Assembly (NCBI GenBank): GCA_017828975.1
Contig: JAGAJN010000032.1
Location: 1-64,000, forward strand
Reading direction: 5' to 3'
DNA length: 64,000 nt
DNA from: Oscillospiraceae bacterium
GTDB taxonomy: Bacteria; Bacillota; Clostridia; Oscillospirales; Ruminococcaceae
How positions within the stretch are numbered: the first letter of the stretch is position 1; each line of letters starts with the position of its first letter. Below are positions 3,889-11,731 of this stretch, piece by piece. A program made the position numbers and the translations under genes. Below the pieces are notes generated by a model. The model was given only the letters and a program-made list of their open reading frames with translations, was not told where the DNA came from and made no database searches.

Positions 3889-3964
3889 TGGTGGAAACTA
3901 TAGGGCTCGAACCTATGACCCTCTGCTTGTAAGGCAGATGCTCTCCCAGCTGAGCTAAGCTTCC
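3889..3964 (-). tRNA. tRNA-Val (anticodon TAC)
   Basis: The anticodon stem TCTGC/GCAGA encloses CTTACAA, giving TAC. CCA is encoded. It is first in the cluster, just after the promoter. Confidence 0.95.
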
Positions 3965-4007
3965 ATCTTGTTGTCTTTCGGCTTACCTGCCGTCTGACGA
4001 CTTTTAT

Positions 4008-4036
4008 ATCTTACTACATTTCAAGAGAAAAGTCAA
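4008..4036 (-). promoter_or_regulatory. Promoter of the Val-Asp-Phe-Gly tRNA cluster
   Basis: On the minus strand TTGACT (4031-4036) and TAAGAT (4008-4013) are 17 bp apart. The rest of the gap up to 4306 is AT-rich with nothing else recognisable. Confidence 0.65.
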
Positions 4037-4306
4037 GAGTTTTTTCGCAAAAAAATCCGATTTGTGAGATTTAACAGCCGTTTAACGCAAATTAAGCTAT
4101 ATTTACAGCGTTTTGCACATTGATTTTACCTGTTTTTCACCGAAACAAAAAGTTTCGCCTGTTCTCCAAAAAATCTCCTGAAATGAACATTTTTCCATTT
4201 AACAAATCAGCAACAGAAAAGTCAGAAAATATGTTATCTTTTCTTGCAATTTCGTTATATAATGGAGTAAGTAAGTGAGTAACATTTTGTGTCAGGGGGT
4301 TTTGCA

Positions 4307-5206
4307 ATGATAAACGTCTGCCTTCCCGGAACAGGCGGCACGATCCCGCTAAAGGACAGGTGGCTGACCTGTCTGTGGATAGAATACAACGGAAAAGCTG
4401 CACTCATCGACTGCGGCGAGGGCACACAGATCGCCCTTGCTGAAAGCGGCTGCAAGCTGTCCAAGATAGAAGCGATCTTCATAACCCACGTCCACGCAGA
4501 CCATATTGCGGGGCTGCCCGGGCTTCTGCTGACTATGGGAAACCACGGCAGAACAGAGCCTGTGACCATCTACGCCCCCATCGGCACCCACTATATTATC
4601 GGAAACCTGTGCAGCATCTGCCCCTTTGTCCCCTTTGCGCTGCACGTTAAGGAGCTGGACATTGACGAGGAAGCCCATGCCGAATGGAACGGCTTTGACG
4701 TGAACGTCCTCCCCCTGCGCCACACTATGCCCTGTCTGGGATATTCCTTCACAATGCACCGCAGACCTGTGTTTTCCCCCGAAAAAGCGGAGGCTATGGG
4801 CATACCCAAGCAGCTTTGGTCGGTGCTGCACAAGGGCGGCGAGATAGAGCTTGACGGACGGAAGATAACCTGTGATATGGTGACCGACGCCGCCCGTGAC
4901 CCCATAAAGATAACCTATATGACCGATACGCAGTATTTCCCCAAAATGACCGAATTTGCCGAAAGATCCGACCTTCTGGTATGCGAGGGAATGTACGGCG
5001 ACAACGGCTCGGACGGCAAGGCTCATGAAAAGGGGCATATGCTGTTCGCTCAGTCGGCGGCGGTGGCGGCAGATTCGGGCTCAAAGGAGCTTTGGCTGAC
5101 CCATTTCAGCCCGTCTATGGACAATCCCTTTGACTATGCGGAGATAGCGCAGGAGATATTCCCGAATACCGTTATTCCCGCTGATGGTATGAAATGTGCG
5201 TTGTAA
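4307..5206 (+). CDS. rnz: Ribonuclease Z-like MBL-fold hydrolase
   Basis: RNase Z cleaves tRNA precursors after the discriminator base; bacteria use it on tRNAs lacking an encoded CCA. The 299-aa product has the metallo-beta-lactamase signature HVHADHIAGLPG (near residue 65), an early CGEGTQ motif, and late histidines in LPLRHT and LTHFSPS, matching the metal ligand pattern of the family. ATG at 4307 is chosen because AGGGGG lies 8 bp upstream. All five tRNAs visible here encode CCA, so its substrates must be elsewhere or its role differs. A monocistronic gene next to, but divergent from, the tRNA cluster. Confidence 0.8.
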   Translation: MINVCLPGTGGTIPLKDRWLTCLWIEYNGKAALIDCGEGTQIALAESGCKLSKIEAIFITHVHADHIAGLPGLLLTMGNHGRTEPVTIYAPIGTHYIIGNLCSICPFVPFALHVKELDIDEEAHAEWNGFDVNVLPLRHTMPCLGYSFTMHRRPVFSPEKAEAMGIPKQLWSVLHKGGEIELDGRKITCDMVTDAARDPIKITYMTDTQYFPKMTEFAERSDLLVCEGMYGDNGSDGKAHEKGHMLFAQSAAVAADSGSKELWLTHFSPSMDNPFDYAEIAQEIFPNTVIPADGMKCAL

Positions 5207-5207
5207 T

Positions 5208-5344
5208 TTTAGTGTTGAATGTTAAGTGATGAGTGTTGAGTTTAACGTGAAATGTAGATTTTTTAGTTTGCCCTCGTATGGAGAACGCCCACCTGACAAT
5301 CCTACATTTAATTCAACTCTCAACTTTCAACACTCAACACTAAA
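5208..5344. repeat. Paired inverted heptad repeat arms
   Basis: A forward arm (TTTAGTGTTGAATGTTAAG..., 5208-5243) and an inverted arm (ATTCAACTCTCAACTTTCAA..., 5310-5344) flank about 65 bp of spacer. The second arm and its left flank match the block at 291-347. Confidence 0.65.
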
Positions 5345-5392
5345 TTCCTATTTGGTCGGACAGATACTTTAAAAAGACAAAAGAACGGCGTT

Positions 5393-5423
5393 CCCGCACC
5401 CCAAAAGGCACGGAAACGCCGTT
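5393..5423 (-). terminator. Terminator of citrate synthase
   Basis: AACGGCGTT pairs with AACGCCGTT around a loop. It lies just past the minus-strand stop codon, followed downstream by a short T-rich stretch. Confidence 0.7.
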
Positions 5424-5427
5424 ATTT

Positions 5428-6795
5428 TTATCTCTCGGAAAGAGGAACATAGTCAACATGCGACTGAACGCCCATATAAGCGGGACGGATTATCTTTCCG
5501 CAGTTGATAAGCTCCTCAATGCGGTGTGCTGACCAGCCCGAGATCCTCGCAATGGCAAAAAGCGGAGTGTACAGCTCCAGCGGCAGATTGAGCATATTGT
5601 AAACAAAGCCGCTGTAAAAGTCGATATTCGCGCTGACACCCTTGTAAATGCGGCGTTCCTGCGCAATGACCTCCTTGGCAAGACGCTCAACGGCAGAGTA
5701 CAAGCCGTATTCCTTCTCCTTGTGCTTCTCCACCGAAAGCTTTTCGACGAACTGCTTGAACAAATTCGCTCTCGGGTCGGAAATGGAGTAAACAGCGTGT
5801 CCCATACCGTAGATAAGTCCCGCCTTGTCGAATGCCTCCTTGTGGAGCAGCTTCAGCAGATAGTCCTTTATCATATCGTCATCGTTCCAGTCGGAAACGT
5901 TCGCCTTGATGTCGTCAAACATCTGAACGACCTTGATATTCGCACCGCCGTGCTTGGGACCCTTCAGCGAACCCAGAGCCGCCGCTATTGCAGAGTAGGT
6001 GTCCGTTCCCGAAGATGTTACAACGTGTGTGGTGAAGGTGGAGTTGTTACCGCCGCCGTGTTCGGCATGGAGCACCAGCGCAAGGTCAAGTATCTTTGCT
6101 TCAAGCTCGGTGTATTCGCTGTCGGGACGGAGCAGATGCAGAATATTCTCAGCCGTTGACAGCTCTGGCTTCGGCTGATGGATAAACAGGCTCTCCTTGT
6201 CAAGATAGTAGCTTTTCGCCTGATAACCGTAGACCGCCAGCAGCGGGAACAGCGCGATCAGCTCAATGCACTGCCGCAGAACGTTCGGTATGGAAATGTC
6301 ATTTGGCGCATCATCATAAGCATAAAGAGTAAGAACGCCCCTTGCAAGGCTGTTCATAATGTCGTTGCTGGGAGATTTCATCATAATATCCCGCACAAAT
6401 GTGGTAGGCAGCTTTCTGAAATCGGAGATAAGCCCCGAAAATTCCTCCAGCTGCTTCTTATCGGGCAGCTTTCCGAACAGCAGAAGATAGGTCGCTTCCT
6501 CGAAGCCAAAGCGCTTATCCTTCACAAATCCGCCCACAAGGTCGTTTATGTTAACGCCTCTGTAATAAAGTTCACCCTCGCAGGGAATACTTTTCCCGTC
6601 GATATTTTTTGACGAAATTATCTCGGAGATCTCCGTAAGTCCCGTTAATACGCCCTTTCCGTTGACATCTCGCAGACCTCGCTTAACGTCATAACGGGTG
6701 TACAGTTCCGCATCAATGTTATTATTTTCCACACAAAGGTTTGCCAGCTCCTCAACAAGCGGCGTGATATGAGAAAAACTGTAATTAAATGGCAT
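5428..6795 (-). CDS. gltA: Citrate/2-methylcitrate synthase family protein
   Basis: Condenses acetyl-CoA with oxaloacetate to citrate. The 455-aa product shows the catalytic-site regions of the family: LHAEHGGG (first histidine), YGMGHAVY (second histidine) and NIDFYSGFVY (aspartate), plus the substrate segment SSGTDTYSAIAAALGSLKGP. It is longer than typical type II enzymes because of an N-terminal extension of about 50 residues, as seen in clostridial homologues. The gene stands alone between its terminator and a divergently transcribed choloylglycine hydrolase. No other TCA genes are nearby, which fits a biosynthetic role towards glutamate and arginine. 2-methylcitrate synthase activity cannot be excluded. 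Confidence 0.88.
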   Translation of the reverse strand: MPFNYSFSHITPLVEELANLCVENNNIDAELYTRYDVKRGLRDVNGKGVLTGLTEISEIISSKNIDGKSIPCEGELYYRGVNINDLVGGFVKDKRFGFEEATYLLLFGKLPDKKQLEEFSGLISDFRKLPTTFVRDIMMKSPSNDIMNSLARGVLTLYAYDDAPNDISIPNVLRQCIELIALFPLLAVYGYQAKSYYLDKESLFIHQPKPELSTAENILHLLRPDSEYTELEAKILDLALVLHAEHGGGNNSTFTTHVVTSSGTDTYSAIAAALGSLKGPKHGGANIKVVQMFDDIKANVSDWNDDDMIKDYLLKLLHKEAFDKAGLIYGMGHAVYSISDPRANLFKQFVEKLSVEKHKEKEYGLYSAVERLAKEVIAQERRIYKGVSANIDFYSGFVYNMLNLPLELYTPLFAIARISGWSAHRIEELINCGKIIRPAYMGVQSHVDYVPLSER

Positions 6796-6998
6796 TCGAT
6801 CACTTTCCTTTCTTCTTATGTTTTTAAATTTTGTTGATTATAGGTTATTTTATAATTATAGCATATTTTTTTAATTTAATCAAGCGAAAAAGTTCAGTTT
6901 TCATCAAATTTTCACAAGTCGTATTATTAATTCCCCATAATTATAGTGTATACTATGATTGGAAAACACTAAAACAAACACGAAAGGAAGCTAAAATT

Positions 6999-7970
6999 AT
7001 GTGTACAAGCCTTACCCTCACCGCCGATAATTTCTACTTCGGCAGAAATATGGACATTGACTATAACTTTGGCGAGCATATCATCATCACCCCAAGAAAT
7101 TTCCCCTTCAAATTCCGCAAATCGGGCGAGCTGAACAGCCACTACGCTATTATCGGAATGTCCTCCGAAGCGGACGGTTTTCCCCTTTACGCAGACGGCG
7201 CAAACGAAAAAGGACTTTGCATTGCGGGACTGAATTTCCCCGGATATGCGAAATACTCGGACACGGACGCCCCCGACAAGAAAAACATTGCACCCTTTGA
7301 GCTTATCCCCTGGATACTCGGTCAGTGCGCAGACGTTGACGAGGCGGAAAAGCTGCTTTTGTCCTCGAATATCGTGGATATGCCCTTTAACGACAAGATT
7401 CCCGCAGCCACCCTCCATTGGCATATCGCCGACAAAAACCGCTCCATCGTGCTGGAAAATACCGAAAGCGGCATGCACATTTACAAAAATCCCGTGGGCG
7501 TTATGACCAACAACCCCACCTTTGATTTCCACCTCACAAATCTGGGACAGTACCTGAACCTCACCCCCGACGACAAGCAAAACCGTTTCGCCGAGGACGC
7601 AGGAGTAAAACCCTTCGGCAAGGGACTGGGCAGCTACGGACTTCCGGGCGACTCCTCTCCCGCATCAAGGTTTGTGCGGACATCATTCCTGAAGCTGTAC
7701 TCCAAATGCCGTCCCGAGGACGGTGTTGCGCAGTTCTTCCACATTCTGGACGCTGCTGCTGTTGTAAACGGAAGTATTGTCCCCGAAAGCGGCAAGGATT
7801 ATATGACCACCTACGCCGCCTGCATGGACGCCGACAACGGCATTTACTATTACAAGACATATGCAGGCTGCCGCATTTACGCCGCAAATATGTATCACGA
7901 AAATCTGGACAGTTCCGAGCTTATAAGGATCCCTCAGCCCGAAAAGCCTGTTTTTGACCCGCTCAACTGA
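6999..7970 (+). CDS. Choloylglycine hydrolase family protein (bile salt hydrolase or penicillin V acylase)
   Basis: An Ntn-hydrolase that cleaves amide bonds, usually of conjugated bile salts. ATG at 6999 (after AAAGGAAG) puts Cys at position 2, which becomes the N-terminal nucleophile once Met is removed; earlier in-frame starts would bury it. Other family residues are visible: R16 and D19/D21 in FGRNMDID, N69 in DGANEKGL, an asparagine in MTNNPTF, and an arginine in SPASRFVR. The 323-aa length is usual. There is no signal peptide, so it should act in the cytoplasm. Bile salt hydrolase is favoured for a gut bacterium, but substrate choice between bile salts and penicillin V is not decided by sequence inspection. 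Confidence 0.88.
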   Translation: MCTSLTLTADNFYFGRNMDIDYNFGEHIIITPRNFPFKFRKSGELNSHYAIIGMSSEADGFPLYADGANEKGLCIAGLNFPGYAKYSDTDAPDKKNIAPFELIPWILGQCADVDEAEKLLLSSNIVDMPFNDKIPAATLHWHIADKNRSIVLENTESGMHIYKNPVGVMTNNPTFDFHLTNLGQYLNLTPDDKQNRFAEDAGVKPFGKGLGSYGLPGDSSPASRFVRTSFLKLYSKCRPEDGVAQFFHILDAAAVVNGSIVPESGKDYMTTYAACMDADNGIYYYKTYAGCRIYAANMYHENLDSSELIRIPQPEKPVFDPLN

Positions 7971-7994
7971 CGCTGATATGTCTGCAAACGCCTA

Positions 7995-8023
7995 TTGATT
8001 TTCCTCGGAGAATATGGTATAAT
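7995..8023 (+). promoter_or_regulatory. Promoter of the Rpn-family gene
   Basis: TTGATT (7995-8000) and TATAAT (8018-8023) have a 17-bp spacer, 26 bp before the start codon. The leader has only a poor ribosome binding site, in contrast to the strong internal one at 8803-8808. Confidence 0.65.
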
Positions 8024-8048
8024 AAAAATAGTGAGTAAGTGACAGCCG

Positions 8049-9074
8049 ATGCAGACCTATGAAGGAAACGCCATTGATGCGTCCAATTCCGATAAGCTGA
8101 AAGCCCGTCTTGACAGAAGCTGCAAAAAGCTTCTCGCTTCAAGATATATCACTGCGTATATTCTAAAATCGGTGGTGCCGGAATACAAAGACTGCGACAT
8201 AAACACCGTAATGAAGCTTATCGGAAAGCGTGAGATCTCAAAAACGACCGTTGATATGGACATTCCGCCCATCGTGGAAAATGAAACCACAGAAGATAAT
8301 TCCATTAACGAAGGACAGCGCTTTTACGACATAAAATTCACCGCCCGCACACCGCAGGATCAGACAATAGCGCTAATCATCAACATTGAAATTCAGAATG
8401 AGATCAAAAAATATCACCTGATAAAACGTGCGGAATATTACTGCGCAAGGCTTATCTCCGCACAGTACAACAGCGTATTCACAGGCTCGGATTTTGACAA
8501 GATACAGAAGGTCTATTCCATATGGATATGCACATCACCCGACGCAAAGCACAGGAATACCATCTCACTTTACAAAATGAGCCGTGAAAATCTTATCGGG
8601 AATTATACCGACACCGAGGAGGATAAACGGTATTATGACCTGATGAATATAATTATGGTGTATCTGGGGGATTCTCAGACGAAGGAATGCGGCGGCATAA
8701 TACGAATGCTTTATTCGCTGCTTGTGGCAAATCTGACGCCCTATGAGAAGAAAAAGATCGCCCACGAAGAATTCGGCGTACCAATTGTACAGGAATTTGA
8801 TAAGGAGGTAAACGGTATGTGTGACATCAGTACTCTATATATTTCACAGGGAATAGCGCAAGGCGTGGCAAAAGGCAGAGCTGAGGGAAGAGCTGAGGGA
8901 AGAGCTGAGGGAAGAGCTGAGGGAAGAGCTGAGGGCAGAGCTGAAGGCAGAACTGAAGAAAAAATCAAAATGATAATCAAGCTGTTCAAAAAGGGTATGC
9001 CCGTTGAAGATATTGCTGATACTGCCGAGCTGACTATCTCCGAAACAGAGAAGATCATTAAGGAGAACTCTTAA
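8049..9074 (+). CDS. Rpn family recombination-promoting nuclease / PD-(D/E)XK (full-length, RpnL-like)
   Basis: 341 aa. The N-terminal part carries the PDDEXK_2 (transposase_31) nuclease core: FYDIKFTARTPQDQ followed by INIEIQNE gives the D...ExQ catalytic pattern. A helical middle region leads to a C-terminal tail with six tandem GRAE units plus GRTE (residues 276-303) and a closing helix-turn-helix-like segment. Rpn proteins are reported as toxic DNases that act in phage defence and are inhibited by their own separately translated C-terminal domain. No good Shine-Dalgarno precedes the ATG, whereas an AGGAGG lies inside the gene at 8803. The C-terminal module is duplicated downstream. Confidence 0.88.
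   Translation: MQTYEGNAIDASNSDKLKARLDRSCKKLLASRYITAYILKSVVPEYKDCDINTVMKLIGKREISKTTVDMDIPPIVENETTEDNSINEGQRFYDIKFTARTPQDQTIALIINIEIQNEIKKYHLIKRAEYYCARLISAQYNSVFTGSDFDKIQKVYSIWICTSPDAKHRNTISLYKMSRENLIGNYTDTEEDKRYYDLMNIIMVYLGDSQTKECGGIIRMLYSLLVANLTPYEKKKIAHEEFGVPIVQEFDKEVNGMCDISTLYISQGIAQGVAKGRAEGRAEGRAEGRAEGRAEGRAEGRTEEKIKMIIKLFKKGMPVEDIADTAELTISETEKIIKENS
8817..9074 (+). CDS. Nested in-frame gene for the Rpn C-terminal domain (RpnS-like antitoxin)
   Basis: An internal ATG at 8817, in frame with the Rpn gene, is preceded by AGGAGG (8803-8808) at an 8-nt spacing, the best ribosome binding site in the locus. Translation from here gives 85 aa: a short N-terminal segment (MCDISTLYISQGIAQG), the GRAE repeats and the terminal helices. 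Published work on Rpn systems describes exactly this arrangement, with the small C-terminal product blocking the full-length toxin and four-residue repeats that vary in number. Expression of the small product is inferred from the ribosome binding site, not shown. Confidence 0.72.
   Translation: MCDISTLYISQGIAQGVAKGRAEGRAEGRAEGRAEGRAEGRAEGRTEEKIKMIIKLFKKGMPVEDIADTAELTISETEKIIKENS
8874..8957 (+). repeat. 12-bp tandem coding repeat (GRAE units)
   Basis: Six 12-bp units encoding GRAE followed by one encoding GRTE. The downstream copy at 9182-9229 has three plus one. The central units are nearly identical at DNA level, which suggests slippage or unequal exchange. Confidence 0.9.
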
Positions 9075-9124
9075 ATTCAAAAACACCGTACATTGTACAG
9101 GAATTTGATAAGGAGGTAAACGGT

Positions 9125-9346
9125 ATGTGTGACATCAGTACTCTATATATTTCACAGGGAATAGCGCAAGGCGTGGCAAAAGGCAGAGCTGAGGGCAGAG
9201 CTGAGGGCAGAGCTGAAGGCAGAACTGAAGAAAAAATCAAAATGATAATCAAGCTGTTCAAAAAGGGTATGCCCGTTGAATATATTGCCGATACTGCCGA
9301 GCTGACTATCTCCGAAACAGAGAGGATAATTAAGGAGAACTCTTAA
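9125..9346 (+). CDS. Free-standing RpnS-like antitoxin homologue (duplicated C-terminal domain)
   Basis: A complete 73-aa gene with its own AGGAGG at the same distance as in the nested gene. It repeats the last 85 residues of the Rpn protein but has three GRAE units rather than six and two substitutions in the terminal helices (VEDIADT to VEYIADT; SETEKII to SETERII). No nuclease domain is attached. I infer a duplicated antitoxin, possibly an anti-toxin against Rpn variants with other repeat numbers or a spare inhibitor. The alternative is a decaying by-product of slippage, though frame, start, ribosome binding site and stop are all intact. Confidence 0.75.
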   Translation: MCDISTLYISQGIAQGVAKGRAEGRAEGRAEGRTEEKIKMIIKLFKKGMPVEYIADTAELTISETERIIKENS

Positions 9347-9384
9347 ATTCTAAGGAACTACCGAATAAATCGGCATTTTTGATT

Positions 9385-9450
9385 TTCTTGTTGCCTGAGT
9401 GACGTATTCGGATGTGTGTTCCCCCGCCGAAGGCGGGGGAACACACATTA
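9385..9450. repeat. Dispersed hairpin repeat, copy 1
   Basis: TTCTTGTTGCC followed by GAGT-ACG-AT-CGG leads into a long hairpin (GTGTGTTCCCCCGCC with GGCGGGGGAACACAC). The same block occurs at 54663-54729 with changes. It is terminator-like in shape but lacks a long T run. Confidence 0.6.
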
Positions 9451-9512
9451 ATCAGTATTTTCCTAATACACCGCACCTATTGTACAGGAATTTGATAAGA
9501 AGGGGCTAATAT

Positions 9513-9971
9513 ATGACAATTTTTAGTTACATAAGAGCAGCTTTAATAAGTGAATTTTGGACATTAACAGACTTAAATGAATGGATTATCAATGTGCTAA
9601 CAGCAAGCAATAAATATCATTATGAATTATATGATTTGTTATATGTTAAAGATTTTGAAAAAGTAATGGAGATATTATCACATTTGGCTGCATTAGAAGA
9701 TTACACAAAATATAATGAAATCTCAATTCCTTATGTTGTTTTAGGGTATTATTACTGGCGATATATTTTAGGACAAATTGAATTGAGAAAATGTGTAATT
9801 TTGTGTGGAGAGTATGCCGATCAAGTAGGAACAAACTTAGATTGTTCAGAATTTTACAGCTTGATTAAGGAAATTGATGATAGTGTTGTAAAGGATAATA
9901 TGAGAGTTTTATGTGAAGACTTATTTGTTGAAGCAAAACGACAATATAAATTAATCCATGAATTTTGTTGA
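9513..9971 (+). CDS. Unknown AT-rich gene attached to the Rpn junction remnant
   Basis: 152 aa, not recognised. It is rich in aromatic and acidic residues, has no signal peptide or clear membrane segment, and could be a small all-helical protein. Base and codon use (many AAA, TTA, ATA, GAT) are far more AT-rich than the flanking genes, which points to transfer. The upstream sequence ATTGTACAGGAATTTGATAA (9479 onward) copies the junction that precedes both RpnS modules, and AAGGGG supplies its ribosome binding site. An immunity-like or defence-associated role would fit the place but is only a guess. Confidence 0.6.
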   Translation: MTIFSYIRAALISEFWTLTDLNEWIINVLTASNKYHYELYDLLYVKDFEKVMEILSHLAALEDYTKYNEISIPYVVLGYYYWRYILGQIELRKCVILCGEYADQVGTNLDCSEFYSLIKEIDDSVVKDNMRVLCEDLFVEAKRQYKLIHEFC

Positions 9972-10106
9972 TACATTATATTTATCGTTGCTAACAATAA
10001 CAATAGCCAGCTTACCTCCGTTACCGACAGAAACAGAAATGTTGTGACCTCCACCGATTATTCGGGCAAAAGGAGAACTCATAACCCAAGCGTTCATCAG
10101 CAGCTA

Positions 10107-10137
10107 TCGTCCCGCTATTATGCGGGGCGATTTTAAA
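10107..10137 (+). terminator. Terminator closing the Rpn island
   Basis: ATCGTCCCGC pairs with GCGGGGCGAT (one G-T pair), followed by TTTT. The 9972-10106 stretch before it holds no gene I can support, only a short open tail in the frame of the preceding gene. Confidence 0.75.
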
Positions 10138-10264
10138 TTACAGATATGTTTCCGAAATCTAAAAATATCCACAAAAAATAGGTGACATTTTAGTAAATCC
10201 GTGGTATAATAAAATCTTGAACATTTATGCGGAAAAACCGCAAAAATAAAGGAATGATTTATTT

Positions 10265-11731
10265 ATGGACGGCAAATATGACGTTATTATAGCAGGCACG
10301 GGCGCAGGCGGACTTTATTCGGCACTCAGCCTTCCCCAAAGCCTGAAGATACTTATTATCACCAAAAGAGAGCTTATGCTCTGCAATTCCGCTCTTGCAC
10401 AGGGCGGAATTGCGGGAGTTTACAAGCCCGTTGACGATGATAACATTCAGCTGCACACCAATGACACCCTTGTGGCAGGCGGCTTCAAGAACAATCCCGA
10501 CAGCCTTAAGGTGCTTGTTACCGAAGCGGCACAGGAGATAGGACACCTCATTGACCTCGGCGTTGACTTCGACAGAACAGCCGACGGCGAACTTCACCGC
10601 ACCCTCGAAGGCGGTCACTCCCGCCACAGAATTTTCCACCACAAGGACAGCACGGGCTACGAAATAACCGCCCGCCTTGCCGATGCCGTGAAGAAGCTCC
10701 CCAATGTCACCATTGCCGAGAATGCCCTGCTTTGCGACGTTAAAAAGGTAGACGGCGGATTCTCCTGCGATATTCTTAAGGACGGCGTTCACCATATTGC
10801 CGACGGAAAATTTATGATACTTGCAACAGGCGGTATCGGACGAGTTTACGATTTTACCACAAACTCCGCTATCGCAACGGGTGACGGCATTGCATTCGCA
10901 TACGAAATGGGTGCGGTCATCAAAAATCTCAGCCTGATACAGTTCCACCCCACCGCATTCAACGACAAGCACACAAGAGAATGTTTCCTTATCTCCGAAG
11001 CGGTCAGGGGCGAGGGCGCATATCTTCTCAACAAGAACAAAGAGCGTTTTATGCAGAATTACGACGAGCGTCTGGAGCTTGCACCCAGAGATGTGGTTTC
11101 CCACGCAATCGTTACCGAGGGCAAACGGCTTGATTCGGACGAATTTTACCTTGATATTTCCCATAAGGACAGCGATTTCCTGAAAAACCGCTTCCCCATG
11201 ATATACGAAAAATGCCTTGAATACGGCTATGATATGACCAAGGAGCCTATTCCCATCTACCCCTGTCAGCACTATCTGATGGGCGGTATCAACGTAAATA
11301 CCAAGGCTGAAACCTCTATCGACGACCTCTACGCCGTGGGCGAATGTTCACACACAGGTGTCCACGGAAACAACCGCCTTGCCAGCAATTCCCTGCTGGA
11401 AGCTCTGGTATTTGCACATCAGGCGGCAGAGGACATTGTAAGAAAGCTTGCGGAAAACCCCGAAAAATACAAGGACGCACCGTCAAGCTATGATTATAAG
11501 GTTTCCGAAACAGCACAGCCTATCCCCACGGGAATACGCACGGAAATTCGCCACATTATGCAGAAGGCGTACTTCGTTATCCCCGACATTGCGGAAGCCG
11601 TCAAGGGCTTTGAGCGGGTCTCCGAGATAAAGCGTGACCTTGAAAAGGGCGACTATTTCGTTGACCACAACTATGTTGAAGCAAGGTCCCTTGCAACGGT
11701 CGCTTACATAATTCTGAAAGAGGTTATCTGA
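10265..11731 (+). CDS. nadB: L-aspartate oxidase
   Basis: Oxidises L-aspartate to iminoaspartate, the first step of de novo NAD synthesis, with FAD. The 488-aa product starts with the FAD-binding IIAGTGAGGLYSAL motif and has ALAQGGIAG, the substrate-site region LEGGHSRHRIFHHKD, an ATGGIGRVY motif, QFHPTAF and a late CSHTGVHGNNRLASNSLLEA segment typical of NadB rather than of succinate dehydrogenase. nadA and nadC are not adjacent, unlike in many Firmicutes. The stop codon overlaps the start of rsmE by one base (TGATG), so the two are cotranscribed. Confidence 0.93.
   Translation: MDGKYDVIIAGTGAGGLYSALSLPQSLKILIITKRELMLCNSALAQGGIAGVYKPVDDDNIQLHTNDTLVAGGFKNNPDSLKVLVTEAAQEIGHLIDLGVDFDRTADGELHRTLEGGHSRHRIFHHKDSTGYEITARLADAVKKLPNVTIAENALLCDVKKVDGGFSCDILKDGVHHIADGKFMILATGGIGRVYDFTTNSAIATGDGIAFAYEMGAVIKNLSLIQFHPTAFNDKHTRECFLISEAVRGEGAYLLNKNKERFMQNYDERLELAPRDVVSHAIVTEGKRLDSDEFYLDISHKDSDFLKNRFPMIYEKCLEYGYDMTKEPIPIYPCQHYLMGGINVNTKAETSIDDLYAVGECSHTGVHGNNRLASNSLLEALVFAHQAAEDIVRKLAENPEKYKDAPSSYDYKVSETAQPIPTGIRTEIRHIMQKAYFVIPDIAEAVKGFERVSEIKRDLEKGDYFVDHNYVEARSLATVAYIILKEVI

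Follow-up and report, generated by a model that had tools for sequence, protein, structure and literature searches.

Directly downstream of a full-length Rpn-type nuclease gene (rpnL), the window (the whole 64,000-nucleotide stretch of an Oscillospiraceae bacterium genome analyzed here) carries a free-standing copy of the gene's own C-terminal antitoxin module (rpnS), and the number of 4-residue repeat units in this copy differs from that in the module nested within rpnL. Inequality of this kind was found in every nested/free pair that we compared, in the window's genome, in its relatives, and in Escherichia coli. The arrangement itself is already published, and the window locus adds another example. 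On balance, we favor the reading that the free copy is a maintained RpnS gene that arose by tandem duplication, is a poor match to its present neighbor, and acts as an antitoxin for other Rpn variants and as a donor of C termini.

The rpn locus of the window

The features of the locus are collected in Table 1. The long protein narrowly passes the Pfam model PF12784 (28.0 bits against a cutoff of 27.4, residues 87 to 178), and TIGR01784 (Rpn) gives the lowest E value in NCBIfam both for the long protein (E = 1.9e-9, 37.8 bits) and for the free copy, which is matched in its C-terminal part (E = 8.5e-7, 29.1 bits). Since these scores fall under the TIGR01784 cutoff of 52.1 bits, we use the name "Rpn-type" only; judged by the profile matches, rpnL is on a divergent branch and is not a certified TIGR01784 member. 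Residues D94, E114, and Q116 are invariant in a five-sequence alignment, and we take them, by eye, as candidates for the catalytic D...E-x-Q. In a profile comparison of the rpnL protein with RpnE of E. coli K-12, the C-terminal stretch alone was aligned (45 columns, probability 45.6). The unit array starts at residues 12 to 20 of the small protein, and its length differs between relatives in steps of whole units, as in the Rpn family, which is recognized by variable 4-residue repeats starting 8 to 20 residues past the small-protein Met. A search of solved structures with free rpnS returned nothing better than E = 0.09. PF14261 (DUF4351), which is given for the free RpnS of some species (Zhong et al. 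2023, PMC10327210), is not listed in Pfam up to an E value of 1 for either the free or the long protein.

Zhong et al. (2023, PMC10327210) showed that the antitoxin RpnS is made by translation starting inside the rpn gene. The internal AAGGAGG of rpnL and the in-frame ATG at 8817 predict a small C-terminal protein in this same arrangement, and sites resembling them also occur at rpn loci of G001, the only other genome of the same genus returned by our search. The sequence-only reading had described a tandem copy of this internal ribosome-binding site, ATG, coding region, and stop at 9125 to 9346, with three GRAE units where the nested module has six and with two changes in the end helices; alignment bears out both points. 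The duplicated segment (approximately 8784 to 9081) recurs at 9092 to 9353, which places the start of free rpnS 50 nt beyond the rpnL stop. The two occurrences agree at all 91 nt of the leader plus head and at 142 of 147 nt of the tail, and the free array is 36 nt shorter than the nested one, equivalent to three 4-residue units fewer. Outside this gap, 71 of 73 residues are the same, with both exceptions (D65Y and K79R, nested numbering) in the tail; at the nucleotide level, the substitutions comprise four synonymous and two nonsynonymous changes. Direct-repeat families of 142 nt and 198 nt were detected at the rpn locus, and the repeat is not a chance one. Other matches to free rpnS in its own genome are only 37 to 58% identical, against the near identity with the adjoining gene. 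Free rpnS is, in this sense, a separate downstream gene derived from its neighbor's own C-terminal module, of the rpnES/ypaA type.

Four units of the nested array end in the codon variant GGA and no unit of the free copy does so, which suggests, for this one locus, that the repeat array of rpnL grew after the duplication. No terminator was found between the two copies on the plus strand (7950 to 9620), and there were no Rfam matches at the gathering threshold in the region from 7000 to 11000. Free rpnS probably shares a transcript with rpnL and nested rpnS, with translation beginning at its own ATG.

The nearest relative of the locus is found on contig C32 of G001, where the rpn protein is 91% identical to that of rpnL and the region is syntenic with window positions 3912 to 9093 (three alignment pieces, 88 to 93% identity). 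That region contains the rpn gene together with ~19 bases beyond it but no second rpnS copy, and the last alignment piece stops within ~2 nt of the duplicate junction. As this relative has rpn but lacks the second copy, either the window's lineage acquired the copy or the other lineage lost it. The sequence-only reading had named the lack of an open frame in related strains as evidence against its claim; G001:C32 goes halfway toward this, since what it lacks is the second copy altogether.

Beyond the free copy, the third, partial leader precedes an orphan open reading frame that has no Pfam match over the cutoff (one weak match at E = 0.094), none listed up to an E value of 1 in NCBIfam, PADLOC, or PHROGs, and matches in 0 of 99 other genomes at an E value of 0.01. 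Positions 9356 to 9462 form a dispersed intergenic palindromic repeat whose stem is perfect over 17 bp (fold z-score of -5.9 for 9347 to 9470); on contigs C10 and C33 of G001, it likewise occurs close to rpn copies. Querying with 9347 to 9512 gave 32 matches in the genome of the window, of which 4 fall within the rpn locus (each palindrome being counted on both strands). This element was considered as the agent of the duplication; 28 of the 32 matches lie outside the rpn locus. Directly upstream of rpnL (6999 to 7970) is a gene of the choloylglycine hydrolase family (PF02275, E = 8.6e-104).

Table 1. Features of the rpn locus in the window, in order of position
Feature	Positions	Strand	Basis
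Promoter-like site upstream of rpnL, TTGATT-17-TATAAT with TG before the second hexamer	7995-8023	+	Consensus scan, 10/12 positions; candidate by consensus alone
rpnL, full-length Rpn-type PD-(D/E)XK nuclease, 341 aa	8049-9074	+	ORF, PF12784 match
Ribosome-binding site of nested rpnS, AAGGAGG, 8 nt before ATG	8802-8808	+	Sequence
Nested rpnS, 85 aa, in frame with rpnL, ATG 8817	8817-9074	+	Sequence
Repeat array of nested rpnS, GRAE x6 + GRTE	8874-8957	+	Sequence
Duplicated leader of free rpnS, carrying AAGGAGG at 9110-9116	9092-9124	+	Leader and head identical to nested copy
Free-standing rpnS, 73 aa, ATG 9125, own stop	9125-9346	+	ORF, alignment to nested copy
Repeat array of free rpnS, GRAE x3 + GRTE	9182-9229	+	Sequence
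Third, partial rpnS leader copy, before an unrelated ORF	9472-9503	+	93.75% identity with the leader of relative L031 over 32 nt; direct-repeat family
Orphan ORF, 152 aa, AT-rich (27% GC), downstream of third leader	9513-9971	+	ORF

Repeat numbers of nested and free copies

Nested and free copies were compared at 10 loci in five genomes, giving 14 pairs. Repeat numbers are equal in 0 of the 14 pairs and at 0 of the 10 loci, and the differences are whole 4-residue units if one disregards the tail extensions in two pairs (2 and 5 residues). In the window's own genome, a free copy accompanies rpn at three loci, where the nested and free proteins measure 85/73 (C21), 78/70 (C2), and 79/59 (C30, measured from the common Met) residues. 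The corresponding values in G001 are 89/73 at C33, where the copies are identical outside the gap, 97/73 at C10, and 69/65 at C43, where the contig ends within the long gene. A nested module of 53 residues is followed by free copies of 69 and 85 at G118:C83, and one of 91 residues by free copies of 107 and 100 at G302:C16. At G237:C178, two distinct rpn genes are each followed by a pair of free copies (63/59/77 and 60/52/48, the latter measured from the common Met); both genes lie within one 5-kb stretch (L079). Three different numbers occur at each of the four loci with two free copies. The free copy is shorter in 9 of the 14 pairs and longer in 5, and in E. coli rpnE (see below) it is shorter in 7 of nine combinations; the proposition that the free copy is always shorter was therefore rejected. 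At G001:C33, at G302:C16, and in the window, the register has changed within the lifetime of near-identical duplicates.

How often a free copy accompanies rpn depends on the sample. Two further long rpn-like genes of the window's genome (C34 and C30:35.6k) have no neighboring copy; C7:18270 was left out of this check. Among 18 rpn genes whose small protein begins with MC[ND][ILM]S and that have 400 nt or more of sequence downstream, a sample tilted to the window's relatives and including regions picked for their hits, 6 have an intact free copy and 1 has a decayed remnant (L081). In an evenly drawn survey of the phylum, 74 of 299 genomes gave a match; 30 loci were fetched, a long frame was read in 27, and a recent copy was present in 2 of these 27 (L098 and L117, the latter from the window's own genome), with rows L109, L114, and L115 dropped. 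One further locus, L091, has a related but different C-terminal fragment downstream and stands outside this count. Frames consisting of the S region only, with no long neighbor in the stretch, were left uncounted (L073, L076, L077, and L078). A survey of the order found matches in 5 of 394 genomes, the window's own among them; its new locus L207 has no free copy, and L208 and L209 were left out.

In the family of G475 (13 genomes), another one with multiple rpn genes, 30 loci were retrieved, 29 of them with a central long frame. No neighboring copy scored at least 90, and 4 of the 30 loci had neighbor matches scoring at least 70. Twenty regions picked for S-only hits included distant S-like neighbors at L187 and L188 and a tandem full-length pair at L204. 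In the latter (from G500), the tandem full-length rpn genes have equal repeat numbers, with units counted by eye, and differ in their repeat residues; equality is therefore not forbidden for whole-gene duplicates. A search for related loci with narrow patterns gave 4 loci. Tandem full-length rpn-like genes were also observed at L088 and L089 (G240), with C-terminal parts that are near-identical save for repeat number.

Counterparts in E. coli

The sequence-only reading knew of no described system with an extra antitoxin-only copy, which proved mistaken. Separate downstream RpnS genes adjoin E. coli rpnE (ypaA) and rpnC and have independent origins, the free-standing RpnES (ypaA) protein has been detected by tagging, and the rpnS region can be deleted or fused (PMC10327210). 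A difference in repeat number between the downstream copies and their neighbors is not stated in the main text of that paper. Among the papers found on the subject, it is the only one to name both RpnE and ypaA; the word ypaA is absent from the passages searched in Kingston et al. 2017 (PMC5350276).

The rpnE-ypaA (rpnES) locus resembles the window in having a nested RpnS and, downstream, a free RpnS with its own ribosome-binding site and an unequal number of units. In K-12, the free RpnS begins 12 nt past the stop, with 0 units in the nested copy and 1 in the free one, and ypaA matches the RpnAS structure 7TH0 (E = 3.4e-4). RefSeq flags K-12 ypaA as a pseudogene and K-12 rpnE as inactive, unlike rpnL of the window; in many fetched strains, the free rpnE copy (L070, L122 to L132) carries a flag for an incomplete N terminus, yet its frame is open.

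We compared rpnE in 23 strains, of which 20 have the free copy and 3 do not. Unit numbers are unequal in all 20 two-copy strains, in nine (nested, free) combinations: (5,1) in five strains; (0,1), (5,2), and (1,4) in three each; (8,4) in two; and (5,0), (6,2), (8,6), and (6,4) in one each. Because the E. coli strains were hand-picked for differing spans from evenly stepped lists (15/60, 7/60, and 6/60 rows, with K-12 taken by accession), these counts are not population frequencies. Whereas the tails of the window pair remain nearly identical, those of rpnE have diverged into two types, one nested and the other free, and all three one-copy toxins (with 0, 2, and 6 units) end in the free-copy tail. 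The S region of the two-unit one-copy toxin (L134) is one residue off the free RpnS of L124, L129, and L139. These toxins fit the proposal of the sequence-only reading that the C terminus can be replaced by recombination; fusions, for their part, were already described by Zhong et al., and the one-copy state may be either ancestral or derived.

The downstream RpnCS of rpnC, present in some E. coli strains, is likewise free-standing and arose independently; it has a different start (MEIKTRRETRQTLAQW) and is more diverged than the window's copy. Its repeat length differs from that of the nested module in 6 of 6 strains (five distinct pairs). Counted by hand from TLAQWFEE to the KGM motif, the nested/free residues are 30/24, 30/20, 30/20, 14/22, and 42/18, and three of these five differences do not correspond to complete units. 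The different repeat number noted for the window by the sequence-only reading thus held in all nested/free pairs compared.

Selection, mismatch, and the role of the free copy

The free copies are maintained as proteins by purifying selection. dN/dS ranges from 0 to 0.47 in 14 of 14 nested/free pairs and from 0.05 to 0.30 in 4 of 4 free/free pairs, in which the nested gene has no part; with values well below 1, the free frames are kept as protein genes and are not debris. The window pair contributes 6 substitutions only, and young pairs of this kind carry little weight alone in such an estimate; as the copies were found as open frames, broken ones are undercounted. The mismatch in repeat number is a different matter. 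Among 18 nested RpnS of this type, length is equal in 1 of 153 pairs, so that ~0.1 equal pairs would be expected in 14 independent draws (length being a proxy for unit number here, and tails varying too). Likewise, shuffling the nine rpnE combinations gave 0.56 expected matches and a probability of 0.55 for no match. Lengths are so variable that independent draws would hardly ever match, and mismatch is therefore no proof of selection; the claim that repeat numbers are shown to be selected to differ was rejected on these grounds.

Those same expectations suit a nonadaptive account, in which short direct repeats and slippage generate C-terminal copies that persist for some time and are later lost by deletion or fusion and the mismatch reflects repeat instability. 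The absence of the copy from the nearest relative, the decayed remnant at L081, and the lack of a firm direction in length among the 14 pairs are all consistent with it. We nevertheless consider such a by-product somewhat unlikely, as the low dN/dS values extend across every nested/free and free/free comparison and free copies originated recurrently, with three loci (C21, C2, and C30) in the window's genome itself. That the second copy is an artifact of assembly is highly improbable. The source genome is a 2.57-Mb draft in 39 contigs, but the two copies are distinguished by substitutions and a 36-nt length difference and lead into different flanking DNA, which makes a simple assembly duplication unlikely, and the same anatomy is present in finished E. 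coli chromosomes.

The free copy might instead serve as a backup or dosage antitoxin that tolerates the repeat difference and pairs with the neighboring toxin, or forms mixed dimers with nested RpnS, raising the antitoxin level; the sequence-only reading had also raised a possible effect on dimerization. Its adjacency, its intact start and ribosome-binding site, and its near identity to the nested copy outside the gap speak for such a role, as does the production of downstream RpnES in E. coli (PMC10327210). Against it stands an experiment with RpnC, one E. coli protein, in which one extra unit in RpnCS abolished neutralization, which was restored when the unit was present in both partners; L was blocked by S of equal unit number only (PMC10327210). 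Together with the mismatch of all compared pairs, this makes a backup function unlikely.

The reading that we prefer, of a maintained RpnS gene mismatched to its neighbor, follows the RpnC experiment. A tandem duplication would have copied the C-terminal module of rpnL with its leader, ribosome-binding site, ATG, repeat helix, end helices, and stop. With three 4-residue units missing from its dimerizing first helix, free RpnS would be expected to pair poorly with the neighboring toxin, so that simple silencing would not result; by analogy with the published RpnC test, free RpnS should not neutralize the adjoining rpnL toxin. With neutralization of the neighbor not expected, the most likely roles are those of an antitoxin against other register variants and of a donor for C-terminal exchange. 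As an antitoxin, free RpnS may act on Rpn proteins that have the same unit number and tail as itself, such as earlier versions of the locus or those of other strains; as a donor, it may provide a toxin gene with a new C terminus by recombination, the toxin gene presumably being the recipient. Neutralization of toxins of another repeat class, as proposed in the sequence-only reading, is the best-supported function, although the support is indirect, coming from the RpnC experiment and from free copies in E. coli that share their number of units and type of tail with the full-length RpnE of other strains. No other toxin with the tail of the free copy was found in the window's own genome, so no cognate target is visible there. 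The rpnC length differences that are not whole units, the absence of the copy from the nearest relative, and the RefSeq flags on K-12 rpnE and ypaA also weigh against this reading.

We are doubtful of a more elaborate reading, in which free rpnS forms a stored repertoire that is noncognate to the resident toxin, shields the cell against Rpn toxins of foreign strains or mobile elements, and allows the register to be switched by uptake of the module. A matching free copy would then silence the toxin for good, and selection would keep the numbers apart.

Spare specificity modules beside a toxin are also represented by orphan immunity genes, by displaced C-terminal cassettes of polymorphic toxin loci, and by anti-addiction antitoxins, and such modules may act as recombination donors or as shields against foreign variants. 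The window differs from these in that one C-terminal sequence is common to toxin and antitoxin, so that a spare copy, besides being an antitoxin, is a piece of a possible toxin. A shift in specificity with the number of 4-residue repeats is likewise known from the TAEL repeats of EcoR124I and EcoR124II (discussed in PMC10327210). In those enzymes, it is the spacing of the DNA target that is altered, whereas in Rpn, the repeat is part of the helix through which toxin and antitoxin dimerize, and there is also a separate spare subunit.

The regularity that emerges, a spare antitoxin whose repeat number is unlike its neighbor's in every pair compared, goes beyond the published main text. If a change of one unit generally breaks pairing, the spare copies would not be backups for their neighbors. 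They also document, in natural sequences, how the specificity of Rpn toxins could shift, through a short module that may be an antitoxin or, after recombination, the dimerizing end of a toxin.
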